Shown here: piece after piece, positions 2,238 to 22,500 of the stretch | How positions within the stretch are numbered: position 1 is the stretch's first letter | How the letters are laid out: each line of letters starts with the position of its first letter | Origin: Nitrospirota bacterium | GTDB lineage: Bacteria; Nitrospirota; Leptospirillia; Leptospirillales; Leptospirillaceae | Assembly: GCA_021816465.1 (NCBI GenBank) | Contig: JAKAYF010000020.1 | Coordinates: forward strand, 1 to 32,140 | DNA: 32,140 nt | Direction of reading: 5' to 3' | Notes under the pieces: model-generated | Database searches by the model: none | What the model saw: only the letters and a program-made list of their open reading frames with translations | What the model was told of the DNA's origin: nothing | Program-made: the position numbers and the translations under genes

Positions 2238-2286
2238 AAATGCATTGCACCCTTCAAATAAAAACAATTTCCCGGGAGAAATCAGA

Positions 2287-3276
2287 ATGACCGCAGAAGA
2301 CCAGAACAATCATTCTGGAACAAGAACCCGTTTTTTTTCTCTTGCCGTCATGGTTCCCCTTCTGGGCTTTCTCCTGACGCTCCTGTGGGCAGTCAACCAC
2401 TGGTACGGAGAAACCCGGTATGTGGCCTCCGATGATGCCTACATCCAGGGAAAGATCACCTATGTTTCCTCAAGGCAACCCGGACGCCTGATCGCACTGA
2501 ATGTCAACGAAGGTGATCCGGTCAGGTTCGGGGAGATTGTTGCCACAATCGACCGGACAGGAGATTCCTACCTGAAACCGCAGGACACATCGAAGAATCT
2601 TCAGTCTTTCACCACCATCAAACGGGACATGGCCAAACTCCGGAGCCTCGAAAAACAGGAAACCGACGCGAAAGATCACTATCAAAGAGCAAAAGAACTC
2701 CTTGGCGAGGGATTTCTTTCGCCACAGAAACTCGAAGACCTCAAAACCGACTGGGAGCAGATCCATGTCCAGGTTTCAGAGACAAGAAAGCTGATCTCGG
2801 CTGAACAGCAGTCCCTCGACATATCGGAGGTCCACCCCAGAAATCGCATTGTCTACGCACCAATCAGCGGCCAGATCGCCCAACGACTCGTCAATCTCGG
2901 AGAATCGGTCAAGGCCAACCAGCCCATTGTCAGCATCATCAATCTTGAAAATCCGGACAACATATGGCTCGATGCGTTCGTCCGCGAAACACAGGTCTGG
3001 AAAATCAAACCCGGACAAAAGGTACAGATACACGTTGACGCCTGGCCAAAAGACCATTTTACGGGACATGTTCTGGAGTTTATTCCTGCGGCATCTCAGG
3101 CGTTTTCCCTGTTGCCGACCCAAAATGCGGCAGGAACGTTCGTCAAGGTTGTCCAGAGAATTCCTGTCCGGATTGTTTTTGATTCCCTCAAGGGGAGAAC
3201 ACTCCTTCCCGGGATGTCCGCAGAGGTCCGAATCGACAGGAAAGGTCCTGCCGGTTCCCGGAAGAGGGATCATTGA
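2287..3276 (+). CDS. EmrA-like membrane fusion protein (HlyD family)
   Basis: The 329-residue adaptor would bridge the MFS pump and the outer-membrane channel. It has a single N-terminal membrane anchor (about residues 17-35), followed by the hallmark SDDAYIQGKITYVSSRQPG segment, a first biotinyl-lipoyl half (GRLIALNVNEGDPV), a helical hairpin around residues 105-185, and the second lipoyl half (IVYAPISGQIAQRLVNLGESV). A beta-barrel domain follows. I chose ATG 2287 because GGGAGA lies seven bases upstream; a TTG at 2245 would only add 14 unconvincing residues. It starts 49 bp after the MFS stop and its own stop overlaps the tolC-like start (TGATG). Confidence 0.88.
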   Translation: MTAEDQNNHSGTRTRFFSLAVMVPLLGFLLTLLWAVNHWYGETRYVASDDAYIQGKITYVSSRQPGRLIALNVNEGDPVRFGEIVATIDRTGDSYLKPQDTSKNLQSFTTIKRDMAKLRSLEKQETDAKDHYQRAKELLGEGFLSPQKLEDLKTDWEQIHVQVSETRKLISAEQQSLDISEVHPRNRIVYAPISGQIAQRLVNLGESVKANQPIVSIINLENPDNIWLDAFVRETQVWKIKPGQKVQIHVDAWPKDHFTGHVLEFIPAASQAFSLLPTQNAAGTFVKVVQRIPVRIVFDSLKGRTLLPGMSAEVRIDRKGPAGSRKRDH

Positions 3277-4637
3277 TGGGAAGGCTGTCCGGCTTGCCAC
3301 TCATGGTGTTCCCCCTCCTTCTCCTCTCCTTTTTCACTCCGGGACCGATGGCAGGAGCCCAATCGCCGGAAGAATTCAATGATGGGGCCAGCATTCCGAT
3401 CACCCGGGCCCAGGTCGCGAGAAAGGCCCTTGAGAACAACCCGTCGATTGTCATCTATGCCAGCGAATTTGACTCCAAGAATGAAGAGATCGGAATAAAA
3501 AGAGCCACCTACTATCCACAAATCTCGCTCAATCTCGATGAACTGTTCCTCAACACCCCTGTTGTCGGCATTTCGCTGCCCAATGAAACCGGAATCCCCC
3601 TGACTCTCTTCAACCCCAGCCTGAATCAGGAAATCAGCGGCTTTGGAAAACGCCATAACGAAGTTCTTGCAGCACGGCTTGCGAAACGGTCGGCTCGATG
3701 GAGCCTGAAGGAGGCGCAGCTGAATGTTGTATGGGATGCCGAGATCGCCTTCGACAACCTGGCCATGTACCAGCATCTTTTAAAAGCCGCCCTCAAAAAT
3801 GAGAAGGCCGCGAGGATTCATCTGTCTTCAGAAGAAAAACGTCTTTCCAGGGGACTGGCAATTCTCCCTGACGTCACACAGGCCCGGGTTTATCTGGAAA
3901 CAGCAAGCTATGCCGTCATGACCATCCAAAACAATATCCGGAAAGCCCAGACCGATCTGGGCTACGCAATGGGATCAAGCACCTTTTCCGCCTTCCATGC
4001 CGTCGAGAAAGGGGAACGAAACAATATCCCGAGAGATCCGGAGGCACTGATTGCCTACGCCCTTGACCACAGGCCCCTGATCAGGTCTCTTGAAGATCTT
4101 GATGAAAGGCGAAATGCCCTGATCAAACGGGCTTATGATGAAAATCTTCCAACATTGTCAGCTTTTGCCAACGGACTTTTTCTGTACGGCGTCCCTCCGA
4201 ACATCTCGGGAGCACCGCCGAACAGCGGTCTTTTCCTCCCGACCTATCAGACGGGAATCACACTCTCTGTCCCCATTTTTACCGGAATGAAAATCCTTCA
4301 CGAGACGCAGTCTGAGAAAGACAAGCTCCGGGGCGAGAAGGCAAAGACCCGTCTGGCCCGGATCAGGGTCATCAGAAATGTCCGGAAAGCATGGTTCGAC
4401 CTGAAAACCCAGAAAAAAAAGATCATCCTTGATGAAAGCCGGCTTGAAAATGCCCGGACAAACAAGAGCATGGTTGAAAAAAGCTTTAAAAGAGGCTTGG
4501 TCGATTCCGTTACGCGGATCCAGGCCCAGGCTCAATACCTTTCCGCCAGGGAGAGCCTGATTGCAGACCGGTATCGATACAAGATGATCCAGGATGAGGA
4601 AGGACGGCAGATCGGACTGTTGCCGGATGGGAAATAA
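3276..4637 (+). CDS. TolC-like outer-membrane efflux protein
   Basis: The 453-residue product has an N-terminal signal peptide (hydrophobic core about residues 7-25, probable cleavage after GPMAGA) with no lipobox cysteine. Two outer-membrane-factor repeats follow, seen as long amphipathic helices rich in Ala, Glu, Lys and Arg (about residues 50-200 and 270-440), with the usual SVPIFTG-type strand near residue 335. It would form the trimeric periplasmic tunnel and outer-membrane barrel of the pump. ATG 3276 overlaps the adaptor stop (TGATG) and has GAGG just upstream, so pump stoichiometry may be set by coupling. Length is typical for the family. Confidence 0.87.
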   Translation: MGRLSGLPLMVFPLLLLSFFTPGPMAGAQSPEEFNDGASIPITRAQVARKALENNPSIVIYASEFDSKNEEIGIKRATYYPQISLNLDELFLNTPVVGISLPNETGIPLTLFNPSLNQEISGFGKRHNEVLAARLAKRSARWSLKEAQLNVVWDAEIAFDNLAMYQHLLKAALKNEKAARIHLSSEEKRLSRGLAILPDVTQARVYLETASYAVMTIQNNIRKAQTDLGYAMGSSTFSAFHAVEKGERNNIPRDPEALIAYALDHRPLIRSLEDLDERRNALIKRAYDENLPTLSAFANGLFLYGVPPNISGAPPNSGLFLPTYQTGITLSVPIFTGMKILHETQSEKDKLRGEKAKTRLARIRVIRNVRKAWFDLKTQKKKIILDESRLENARTNKSMVEKSFKRGLVDSVTRIQAQAQYLSARESLIADRYRYKMIQDEEGRQIGLLPDGK

Positions 4638-19198: not shown

Positions 19199-19222
19199 AC
19201 CACTTTCCCCTTGTCGCTGAGA

Positions 19223-19269
19223 TCCCGGGAGGCATTTGCCCAAGACAACTCTCCGAATGCCCCCCGGGA
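19223..19269 (+). terminator. Long hairpin after the exported hypothetical gene
   Basis: TCCCGGGAGGCATT (19223-19236) pairs with AATGCCCCCCGGGA (19256-19269) with a single mismatch over 14 bp, 25 bp beyond the stop. The following CCCTTTCATT is only weakly T-rich, so it may terminate inefficiently or protect the mRNA 3' end. Confidence 0.5.
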
Positions 19270-19343
19270 CCCTTTCATTAAACCATATAAATCAAAATTC
19301 AACATATCCTTAATAAACAACCAAACCAGCATTCAACTACGTA

Positions 19344-19371
19344 TTGAATTAACACAATAAAAGAGTATGAT
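19344..19371 (+). promoter_or_regulatory. Candidate distal promoter of the polyamine operon
   Basis: TTGAAT (19344-19349) and TATGAT (19366-19371) are separated by 16 bp in an AT-rich stretch. It lies about 300 bp upstream of speD and just ahead of a second candidate promoter. Confidence 0.4.
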
Positions 19372-19382
19372 ATTGCCGCTGT

Positions 19383-19411
19383 TTGACATGAGGGCCAAAA
19401 GCCCTGAGAAT
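19383..19411 (+). promoter_or_regulatory. Candidate proximal promoter of the polyamine operon
   Basis: A perfect -35 TTGACA (19383-19388) is followed after 17 bp by GAGAAT (19406-19411), four of six for the -10. The spacer contains the inverted repeat AGGGC-CAAAA-GCCCT (19391-19405), a possible operator. The leader to speD would be about 250 bases long. Confidence 0.45.
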
Positions 19412-19502
19412 TCACAGTGGGAGCCGAGAGACAGATCCGGTCAATTCCTTTCGGGCGCCCCGCATCTTATTTGACGACCGGAAAAACACAGGAGTTCACA
19501 AA

Positions 19503-19646
19503 ATGTCGGCCGGAAGGTTCGATTGGATGTGGCAGGAAAGTTTTTGTTTAATTCCCTTAAACGATAATCTGGAGACGATTTCGTCCTTTTCTTTGATGGG
19601 ATGGGGTCTTCATTTTGTCTGGCCCAAGGGATTTGGGCTGACCTAG
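19503..19646 (+). CDS. 47-codon upstream ORF (leader peptide candidate) before speD
   Basis: ATG 19503 follows AGGAG (19490-19494) with an 8-base spacer, a better initiation signal than many real genes here. The peptide begins MSAGRFDWMWQESF and ends FVWPKGFGLT: it has four Trp and six Phe, and no known family. The TAG stop (19644-19646) lies in the loop/right arm of a perfect 8-bp hairpin and 21 bases before the speD start. A ribosome finishing this ORF would melt that hairpin and stand next to the speD ribosome binding site, so it may act as a translational switch. It is too short to judge by codon use, and a chance ORF cannot be excluded. Confidence 0.45.
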   Translation: MSAGRFDWMWQESFCLIPLNDNLETISSFSLMGWGLHFVWPKGFGLT

Positions 19647-19652
19647 CCCAAA
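19632..19652 (+). promoter_or_regulatory. Hairpin just ahead of the speD ribosome binding site
   Basis: TTTGGGCT (19632-19639) and AGCCCAAA (19645-19652) pair perfectly around GACCT. The stop codon of the upstream ORF is within it and the speD ribosome binding site GGAGG (19656-19660) starts four bases later. It could modulate speD translation. Confidence 0.45.
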
Positions 19653-19667
19653 GATTGGAGGAAAGAA

Positions 19668-20141
19668 TTGCACGCTCTCGGCACACACCTTCTCGTTGAC
19701 CTCAAAGATTGCCAGAATGATGGATTGAACGACATTCAGTTTGTACAGGAAGCCATGCTTTCTGCTGCCCGTGATGCCCAAGCAACAATTGTTGATTTCA
19801 AGTTTCATGAATTCAGCCCTTTTGGTATCAGTGGGGTGGTTGTTATTGCCGAATCTCACCTTGCGATCCACACGTGGCCAGAATATAAATATGCCGCGGT
19901 CGATGTCTTTACATGTGGAGACACCTTGCAACCCGAGGTCGCTGCCATCGCGCTTGCAAAGGCTTTTGCCTCAAGGAATCCGAGCATCCATGAAGTCAAG
20001 CGGGGAATTATCGGAATAGACAACATTCACCGTCCGCACAAGTCAGAAGATGCCGGAAAGGCCCCAACATCAAAAGAAACATTGCCAGGAGAGGAAACGG
20101 TTGATCATGAGCGAGCCTCGGACTTCGAAGTGGTATATTGA
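19668..20141 (+). CDS. speD: S-adenosylmethionine decarboxylase proenzyme
   Basis: SpeD makes decarboxylated AdoMet, the aminopropyl donor for polyamine synthesis. The 157-residue product is the short bacterial (SpeH-type) form: ALGTHLLVDL start, FSPFGISGVVVIAESHLAIHTWPE with the self-cleavage site before Ser63 that becomes the pyruvoyl group, and VDVFTCG with the catalytic Cys83. Translation starts at TTG 19668, seven bases after GGAGG; no ATG is available before the conserved start. The C-terminal 25 residues extend past the usual family end and overlap the next gene by 35 bases, implying coupled translation with the aminopropyltransferase, its direct pathway partner. Confidence 0.92.
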   Translation: MHALGTHLLVDLKDCQNDGLNDIQFVQEAMLSAARDAQATIVDFKFHEFSPFGISGVVVIAESHLAIHTWPEYKYAAVDVFTCGDTLQPEVAAIALAKAFASRNPSIHEVKRGIIGIDNIHRPHKSEDAGKAPTSKETLPGEETVDHERASDFEVVY

Positions 20142-21027
20142 GTACTCCTCACCCTATCTGGGACATATGCACGGACTCTCTGAGCTCGTCGTATCCCTCA
20201 GGACAAATTTCCAGAAAATGGACATTCTCCGGTCCGGGGCTTTTGGCACATGTCTCATTCTTGACGACAAGATGCAGTCCACCTCGGTTGATGAGTTCAT
20301 TTATCACGAAGCATTGGTTCACCCTGCAATGCTCACTCATCCCAGACCAGAAAAGGTGCTCATCATCGGAGGCGGCGAAGGCGCAACCCTGAGAGAGGTA
20401 CTCCGCCACAAGACCGTACGCCAGGCTGTCATGGTCGATATTGACGACCAGGTCATCGAACTGAGCCGGAGACATCTTCCGGAGTGGCACAAGGGATCCT
20501 TTGACGACCAGAGATCCGTCGTGATCGCAACCGATGCCAGAAAGTACCTTGAGGAGTCAAAGGATACCTTTGACGTGATCATCACTGACCTCTCCGAACC
20601 TGTCGAGGAAGGTCCTGCATACCTCCTTTACACAAGGGAGTTCTACCAGATTGCGGTCTCCCACCTGAGCCCCGAAGGAACGCTTTCCCTTCAGGCCGGC
20701 ACAGCGGCGATCCCTTATCTGTTCAACTTCGGTGCGGTTTTCCAGACCCTTTCGGCGGTCTTCCCCGTCGTTGCTCCTTACCAGGCATTCATTCCGTCTT
20801 TCGGTCTTCCCTGGGGATTTATCGTTGCAAGCAAGGACAGGGATCCAAGGCGCTTTGACACCAACAGCATCGATTCGATGATCCTCGAGAGAATGCAGGG
20901 CACCAATGATTTCTACGATGGCATCTGCCATCAGGGGCTCTTCAGCCTCCCGAAGCATATTCGCCAGGAACTTGCTTCCGCGAATGTGGTGATCGAGGAC
21001 AACCGCCCCATATTCTCTTACCATTAA
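20107..21027 (+). CDS. speE: Polyamine aminopropyltransferase, ACL5/thermospermine synthase-like
   Basis: The 306-residue enzyme transfers the aminopropyl group from decarboxylated AdoMet to a diamine or polyamine. The Rossmann motif GGGEGATLREVLRH (88-101), the acidic MVDIDDQVIELS and the ATDARKYL block are typical of the family. The catalytic region reads TDLSEPVEEGPAYLLYTREFY (given in part: DLSEPVEEGPAYLLYT, 161-176) rather than the DSTDPxGP of E. coli SpeE, and QAGTAA plus PSFGLPWGFIVAS follow. These resemble the ACL5/thermospermine synthase branch (DxxDPxxGGPxxxLYT, VPSFxxxWG). The product, spermidine, thermospermine or an agmatine derivative, cannot be told from sequence. ATG 20107 is chosen; TTG 20101 is two codons upstream and better spaced from GAGG (20091-20094). 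Confidence 0.85.
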   Translation: MSEPRTSKWYIEYSSPYLGHMHGLSELVVSLRTNFQKMDILRSGAFGTCLILDDKMQSTSVDEFIYHEALVHPAMLTHPRPEKVLIIGGGEGATLREVLRHKTVRQAVMVDIDDQVIELSRRHLPEWHKGSFDDQRSVVIATDARKYLEESKDTFDVIITDLSEPVEEGPAYLLYTREFYQIAVSHLSPEGTLSLQAGTAAIPYLFNFGAVFQTLSAVFPVVAPYQAFIPSFGLPWGFIVASKDRDPRRFDTNSIDSMILERMQGTNDFYDGICHQGLFSLPKHIRQELASANVVIEDNRPIFSYH

Positions 21028-21036
21028 TCGGCTGAC

Positions 21037-22500
21037 ATGACCCCCTACGATCATAATCGGACACCTTTATTTGATGCGATGGTTGCTCTTGCCGAAAGCA
21101 GGAAGGTCTCCTTCCACACACCAGGCCACAAAAGCGGAAAAGGGATCTCCACCCGCTTCAGAAAATTTGTCGGGCCAAAGGTCTTTTCCATCGACCTGAC
21201 CTGCCTTGATGAAGTGGACTCCCTGCAGAAACCAAGGGGAGTCATAAGAGAAGCGCAAGAGCTTGCCGCAGATATCTATGGGGCTGACCAGTCCTTCTTT
21301 CTCGTCAATGGGACTTCCGGCGGGAATCAGGCAATGATTCTGTCGGTGATGAGCCCTGGCGAACCGATCCTTCTCACCAGGATCCTGCACAAATCGGTGG
21401 TTTCGGGCTTGATCATGACCGACTGCAAACCTGTTTTTATCCCTCTTGAATCAACGCCAGACTGCGACCTGCTTCTCAATGACCGGACATCAACCATCGT
21501 TCAGGCCATGGACGACCATCCGGAGGCCAAGAAACTTTTCCTGACCTCCCCGAATTACTACGGGGTAACGGTCGATCTTCCCCTTATCATTGAAGAAGCC
21601 CACCGTCGTGGCGTTACCGTTCTTGTGGATGAAGCTCATGGCCCGCATCTTCATTTTCATGATGACCTTCCGCCAAGCGCAATGTCGTCAAATGCCGACC
21701 TCTGTGTTCAATCCACCCACAAGATCATTGGCGGAATGACACAGGCATCAATTCTGCACGCAAAAAAGTCAAATATTGATATCGAACGCCTGACCAGCGT
21801 CCTTCGGTATCTCCAGACAACCAGTCCTTCCTATATCCTGATGGCGTCTCTTGATCTGGCTCGCATGCAGATGGCCACGGAAGGAAAAAAGCTTCTGACC
21901 AAGGCAATCGACCTGGCCAGAAAAGCCCGGGAGAAGATTCGTAAAATACCTGGACTGACCTGTATTGATCGCAACGAAGTCAAGGCCGCCTCAGGCGGCG
22001 ACAATGATCTCGATGAGACCAAGCTCGCGATTGGTGTCAAGGGGATAGGACTCACAGGCTACCAGGTCTCACAGAAACTGAACCATGAATTCGGGATTCA
22101 GGTTGAGATGGCCGACCTGCACCATGTTCTGGTCATTGTCAGCATTGGAGACCACAGGGAGGATCTCGACCGGCTTGTCCGGGCCATGGAGGCCATTTCC
22201 CATCAATCCCTCTCCTCGAAGACGGTAGAGCCAATCAATGTCAAACCTCCTTATGCCATTGCCTCTTCGCGAATTAATCCCAGAGAGGCCTTTTTCTCAA
22301 GACATCATTCCGTTCCCCTTGAAGAAGCACTTGGAAAAACCGCCGCAGACATCGTGACCGTTTACCCTCCTGGAATTCCTCTTCTCATTCCGGGGGAAGA
22401 GATTACCCAAACCGTTCTGGACCACCTGATCCTCATGCGCGAAACAGGGGCCACACTCGACGGTCTTGATTCAGCAAACAGGCTGATCAATATCGTCTGA
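21037..22500 (+). CDS. speA: Arg/Lys/Orn decarboxylase, SpeA-type (PLP, short form)
   Basis: The 487-residue PLP enzyme is the short Bacillus SpeA-like form without the N-terminal wing domain of the E. coli decarboxylases. Key blocks are SFHTPGHK (25-32), FLVNGTSGGNQAM (88-100), SPNYYGVTVDL, DEAHGPHLHFH (198-208, PLP-ring contacts) and QSTHKIIGGMTQAS with the Schiff-base lysine K229. A C-terminal domain ends YPPGIPLLIPGE. The family acts on arginine, lysine or ornithine; arginine is my preference by analogy to SpeA. It would supply agmatine (or a diamine) for the adjacent aminopropyltransferase. It starts nine bases after the preceding stop, in the same operon, with a weak ribosome binding site. 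Confidence 0.85.
   Translation: MTPYDHNRTPLFDAMVALAESRKVSFHTPGHKSGKGISTRFRKFVGPKVFSIDLTCLDEVDSLQKPRGVIREAQELAADIYGADQSFFLVNGTSGGNQAMILSVMSPGEPILLTRILHKSVVSGLIMTDCKPVFIPLESTPDCDLLLNDRTSTIVQAMDDHPEAKKLFLTSPNYYGVTVDLPLIIEEAHRRGVTVLVDEAHGPHLHFHDDLPPSAMSSNADLCVQSTHKIIGGMTQASILHAKKSNIDIERLTSVLRYLQTTSPSYILMASLDLARMQMATEGKKLLTKAIDLARKAREKIRKIPGLTCIDRNEVKAASGGDNDLDETKLAIGVKGIGLTGYQVSQKLNHEFGIQVEMADLHHVLVIVSIGDHREDLDRLVRAMEAISHQSLSSKTVEPINVKPPYAIASSRINPREAFFSRHHSVPLEEALGKTAADIVTVYPPGIPLLIPGEEITQTVLDHLILMRETGATLDGLDSANRLINIV

Follow-up and report, generated by a model that had tools for sequence, protein, structure and literature searches.

Upstream of speD, the gene encoding S-adenosylmethionine (AdoMet) decarboxylase, a DNA stretch of 32,140 nucleotides (hereafter the window) carries a short open reading frame with a start signal of its own, and the question arose whether this upstream ORF (uORF) controls speD and, if so, by which mechanism. 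The window originates from a Leptospirillum species; the nearest public locus, in a Leptospirillum MAG, encodes a SpeD that is 97% identical, and the same operon is present in a complete genome of the genus (G002). A sequence-only reading had described a 47-codon uORF with a well-spaced AGGAG, ending inside a perfect hairpin 4 nt before the speD ribosome binding site, and a TTG start of speD. Indeed, these features were found on the forward strand. The uORF (MSAGRFDWMWQESFCLIPLNDNLETISSFSLMGWGLHFVWPKGFGLT; 19503–19646) comprises 47 codons and a TAG stop (19644–19646), its Shine-Dalgarno sequence AGGAG (19490–19494) lies 8 nt before the ATG at 19503, the hairpin spans 19632–19652, and the Shine-Dalgarno sequence of speD, GGAGG (19657–19661), starts 10 nt past the uORF stop. 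The product of speD (19668–20141, TTG start at 19668, 157 amino acids) matched PF02675 (E = 5.6e-40) and the equivalog TIGR03330 above cut-off. It is followed on the same strand by a gene encoding a SpeE-like aminopropyltransferase (20107–21027, 306 amino acids; PF01564, E = 1.1e-46; NF002010 above cut-off), which overlaps the end of speD, and by a gene encoding an Orn/Lys/Arg decarboxylase (21037–22500, 487 amino acids; PF01276, E = 1.6e-80). The decarboxylase gene was found downstream in all 18 operons of the family, in one of them cut by the contig end. L. ferrooxidans has the same three-gene set, and enzyme assays showed its decarboxylase to be specific for L-lysine (PMC8503589). When expressed in E. 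coli, the aminopropyltransferase of L. ferrodiazotrophum gave spermidine and some spermine (PMC11107197).

A probable sigma-70 promoter of the operon, TTGAAT-16 nt-TATGAT, is located at 19344–19371 (+) and matches the consensus at 9 of 12 positions; a second consensus match is listed at 19383–19411. The transcript would be expected to start near 19378, and conservation within the genus, ~50% at most further upstream, jumps to 100% around 19356. Other genera have comparable promoter-like boxes ahead of the uORF. The predicted 5′ UTR of about 110–125 nt (19378–19489, +) is strongly conserved in the genus; an Rfam search of it returned no known RNA family, and a search for a family-wide conserved structure in the 5′ UTR found none. 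Among the three genomes of the genus this segment is near-identical and exceeds much of speD in conservation, and the middle of the uORF (about 19545–19600) is the most variable part; the strong constraint on the 5′ UTR goes beyond what the peptide explains. Further upstream, a long G+C-rich inverted repeat, CCCGGGAGGCATT ... AATGCCCCCCGGG (19222–19275, +), was seen by eye 3′ of the preceding gene; it is probably the terminator of that gene, which would separate it from the speD transcript. Elsewhere in the window, a fluoride riboswitch (RF01734, 362–438, +, 43.3 bits) lies just 5′ of an efflux-like gene run, assigned by eye from the translations: a small membrane protein, an MFS transporter (708–2237), an HlyD/EmrA-like protein (2245–3276) and a TolC-like protein (3273–4637).

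To find out how general the arrangement is, 21 genomes of the Leptospirillaceae were searched, many of them incomplete MAGs; 18 of these, from five genera, contain speD. The uORF was found directly 5′ of speD at all 18 loci, with a length of 43–50 codons and always with a Shine-Dalgarno sequence (AGGAG in the genus of the window, AAGGAG in the other genera). Its C-terminus is exactly VWPKGFGLT followed by the stop codon in every case (19617–19646 in the window), a result on peptide conservation that the sequence-only reading, which had proposed this check, did not have. The twelfth residue before the stop, a leucine, is likewise invariant and is followed by Trp in 15 sequences and by His in three, and the next position varies freely. 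When genera are compared, 10–12 of the last 12 residues are identical, against 1–6 of 30–36 in the remainder. TAA serves as stop in 14 loci and TAG in four, all of them stops read by RF1; the absence of TGA may reflect shared ancestry. The distance from the uORF stop to the speD start is 21, 22, 24 or 28 nt, and the Shine-Dalgarno sequence of speD starts 9–15 nt past the stop at all 18 loci. Read-through of the stop into speD, which is in frame in the window, was considered and rejected: a gap of 22 or 28 nt elsewhere places the two genes out of frame, and the variable gap therefore rules out both read-through and a start of speD fused to the uORF. Since all 18 loci have the uORF with the invariant VWPKGFGLT and stop, its occurrence is far beyond chance. 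The 18 genomes belong to one family and represent fewer independent events than genomes.

A scan with a degenerate DNA pattern for WPKGFGLT-stop, with the reversed pattern as control, gave one match per genome in the 18 speD-containing genomes, always just 5′ of speD. The three family genomes with neither speD nor speE, of which one is 96% complete, gave no match, nor did 375 other Nitrospirota genomes, and the reversed pattern gave zero matches. In a set of 80 speD loci from many phyla the uORF motif was found in Leptospirillaceae loci only; the leaders of 22 speD genes in other Nitrospirota families differ and have no counterpart, and none was found in viral contigs.

Two other groups of speD leaders were noticed in this comparison. 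In Rokubacteria (three loci, L020, L021 and L022), short ORFs near speD end in FVAGEVR-stop (two of the three) and MDGxDKGGSxD-stop. In another Nitrospirota family (L099, L100, L108, L109 and L129), the speD leader contains three apparently covarying hairpins about 130 nt upstream, together with conserved AGGTGA and TTCAC segments that may pair with each other; the RNAalifold z-score was about −17 against column shuffles, in a gappy alignment of five sequences, and there was no Rfam match in the three loci scanned. These leaders are candidate structured RNAs, possibly riboswitches.

At the nine invariant residues, each codon that has synonyms shows variation, and at least 15 substitutions were counted, all of them synonymous and none nonsynonymous. 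For random substitutions 24% would be expected to be synonymous, and the chance of 15 out of 15 is about 6e-10; the substitution count is a lower bound, and the calculation uses a simple model of neutral change in place of a phylogenetic dN/dS. The C-terminus of the peptide beside the stop codon is thus under strong, family-wide purifying selection, and because of this a regulatory uORF on speD, with a logic like that of the eukaryotic uORFs, is the best reading of the locus. The comparison establishes, at the level of the DNA, that the uORF exists, where it lies, that it is conserved and that its C-terminus is selected.

What would such a peptide do? A short ORF with its own start signal lies immediately upstream of speD at all 18 loci and the amino acids near the proposed stall site are kept while the codons drift, both of which are expected of an arrest leader. 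The conserved residues sit directly against the stop codon, the N-terminal half is free to vary, the codons drift synonymously and the downstream gene is always the same one; such traits characterise arrest peptides and most likely point to an effect on termination. We therefore lean, with somewhat better than even confidence, towards the uORF being a translated, cis-acting arrest peptide that acts at its own stop codon and occludes the start of speD, most plausibly as polyamine feedback; its translation, the stalling at termination, repression over activation and the ligand are what we infer. In the proposed mechanism, the C-terminal segment L-W/H-x-VWPKGFGLT in the upper exit tunnel would inhibit RF1-dependent release at TAA or TAG, and the ribosome would stall with the uORF stop codon in the A site. 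A ribosome held at a stop codon covers roughly the next 9–10 nt, and 30S initiation needs about 20 nt upstream of the start. The stalled ribosome would extend to roughly the 5′ edge of the speD Shine-Dalgarno sequence, within the 30S footprint, and speD would not be initiated. With the Shine-Dalgarno sequence only 9–15 nt past the stop, a stalled and an initiating ribosome could therefore not coexist, and the direct effect of stalling would be repression of speD. Repression would probably extend to the operon through the speD/speE overlap, the start of speE at 20107 lying inside speD. In the absence of the signal the ribosome would terminate and clear, or reinitiate, and SpeD would be made. 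As the operon is biosynthetic, stall-dependent repression fits end-product feedback, and the signal would most plausibly be a polyamine that the operon produces, with spermidine first in line. This choice of ligand is a guess from the operon; lysine, cadaverine, putrescine or SAM could serve instead, or the stall might need no ligand.

A first alternative is a stall that needs no ligand, or a slow termination, by which speD would be tuned through translational coupling with no metabolite sensing. The short, constant gap, the weak TTG or GTG starts of speD and a Shine-Dalgarno sequence predicted to be mostly paired would all suit it, and SecM-like peptides need no small-molecule ligand. However, coupling alone needs no nine invariant residues beside the stop, any ORF being sufficient, and we regard this explanation as unlikely. 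Coupling could matter in addition to an arrest, given that folding predicts the Shine-Dalgarno sequence of speD to be largely base-paired in the majority of species, whether or not a stalled ribosome is present. The TTG start itself, suggested earlier as something that could increase the dependence on coupling, may favour it, but relatives start with GTG and TTG also occurs in unrelated Nitrospirota that have no uORF, so that the start codon is weak evidence.

A second alternative reverses the sign of the effect. The uORF could be an activating arrest peptide whose stall raises expression of the operon by blocking Rho or by opening an RNA structure, in the manner of SpeFL, TnaC and mdtU, and the bacterial uORFs of polyamine pathways described in two papers do activate in this way (PMC7815308, PMC8429421). 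Against this, the gap here is only 21–28 nt, compared with 106 nt between mdtU and mdtJ, which is hardly enough for a Rho site or a switch; Rho-dependent attenuation within these 21–28 nt seems unlikely, and no terminator-like site was found between the uORF and speD on the forward strand. Furthermore, when the footprint of the stalled ribosome was masked in partition-function folding, the speD Shine-Dalgarno sequence was freed inconsistently, and the idea that a stalled ribosome opens the ribosome binding site was rejected. Activation is, on these grounds, a rather improbable reading. More doubtful by far is a small protein acting in trans, for example on SpeD, with a merely operonic position: it would account for the good start signal and the conserved residues, but only about 12 C-terminal residues are conserved and the rest is unalignable between genera, unlike a folded protein, and the peptide has no match in Pfam or NCBIfam.

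The hairpin that the sequence-only reading had placed beside the uORF as part of the control was analysed separately. In the window it reads TTTGGGCT-GACCT-AGCCCAAA, a perfect 8-bp stem with the stop codon inside, 4 nt before GGAGG. Perfect stems of at least 8 bp occurred in 12 of 500 Markov-randomised leaders (about 2%), and the hairpin is thus moderately unusual. It is confined to the genus of the window, the bases after the stop differ in the other genera, and structure around the uORF stop is not conserved across the 18 genomes (RNAalifold, z = −0.6). As a conserved element it was therefore rejected; it is probably accessory or incidental as far as the alignments indicate, and of the control proposed for uORF and hairpin together, the uORF is retained and the hairpin is no general part of the device. 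A known riboswitch, including the spermidine riboswitch (a SAM-I variant), was rejected likewise, there being no Rfam riboswitch match in the Leptospirillum leader or the related leaders scanned. That a hairpin or other RNA structure is conserved and not the peptide is scarcely credible, in spite of the perfect stem and the highly conserved 5′ UTR in the window's genus, since the hairpin is missing in the other genera, the z-score around the stop gives no sign of conserved structure, Rfam is blank and the motif varies at synonymous positions only.

The literature search returned no paper with the motif and none on a speD leader peptide, a soft negative with subscription journals mostly outside the search. 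The earlier expectation that a bacterial analogue of the eukaryotic uORFs would be new does not hold for the kind, which is already known from the bacterial polyamine-pathway uORFs speFL and mdtU (PMC8429421, PMC7815308); the peptide family, its place on a bacterial speD and the proposed repression by occlusion appear to be new. If the arrest-peptide reading is true, bacterial polyamine uORFs would serve feedback repression of biosynthesis as well, beyond the induction known from speFL and mdtU, the nine-residue invariant motif would be ready for ribosome structure work, and the regulation of polyamine synthesis in biomining bacteria would become accessible for the first time.

How does the uORF of the Leptospirillaceae compare with known systems? 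We know of no arrest peptide with sequence likeness to VWPKGFGLT. SpeFL activates speF. It is an ornithine-sensing leader of E. coli that stalls at its own stop codon by inhibiting RF1 (PMC8429421), and speF control involves Rho binding and mRNA structure (PMC7815308). Both SpeFL and the uORF described here are leaders of bacterial polyamine operons, but SpeFL differs in sequence, gene and phylum. MdtU, encoded by a 34-codon uORF of mdtJI (the spermidine exporter of E. coli), is spermidine-dependent, most strongly conserved at its C-terminus and exerts positive control of the exporter through Rho (PMC7815308). It resembles our uORF in its polyamine setting and in where conservation is strongest; gene and phylum differ. 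In TnaC, C-terminal residues beside the stop block release and the ligand is captured in the exit tunnel (PMC8429421); unlike the peptide described here, TnaC senses tryptophan, ends at an RF2 stop (UGA), acts by Rho antitermination and belongs to a catabolic operon. Whereas speF, mdtJI and tnaAB lie downstream of SpeFL, MdtU and TnaC, the gene downstream here is speD. SpeFL and TnaC together make inhibition of a release factor at the peptide's own stop codon, with a bound small molecule, an established bacterial principle. In bacteria, the spermidine riboswitch turns off speD, speE and decarboxylase genes (PMC10853860); it differs in being an RNA aptamer without a peptide.

The closest parallel in logic is eukaryotic. 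At high spermidine, ribosomes pause at the stop codon of the MAGDIS uORF of mammalian AMD1 and block initiation at the downstream AdoMet decarboxylase (PMC13025110). Like MAGDIS, the uORF of the Leptospirillaceae is located on the AdoMet decarboxylase transcript, with speD downstream at 18 of 18 loci and conserved residues beside the stop; unlike it, the C-terminus here is VWPKGFGLT, MAGDIS being a six-residue peptide of unrelated sequence that operates with eukaryotic initiation, and the polyamine response here is putative. The full parallel, in which VWPKGFGLT would be a polyamine-sensing nascent peptide in the exit tunnel that blocks RF1 release and shuts off AdoMet decarboxylase by occlusion, as a convergent counterpart of MAGDIS, is put forward tentatively, as a possibility that falls somewhat short of even chances. 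If the mechanism holds, the relation to MAGDIS would be one of convergence and not of membership, and, if the stall is real, animals and an acidophilic bacterial lineage would control the same step of polyamine synthesis by the same trick with unrelated peptides.
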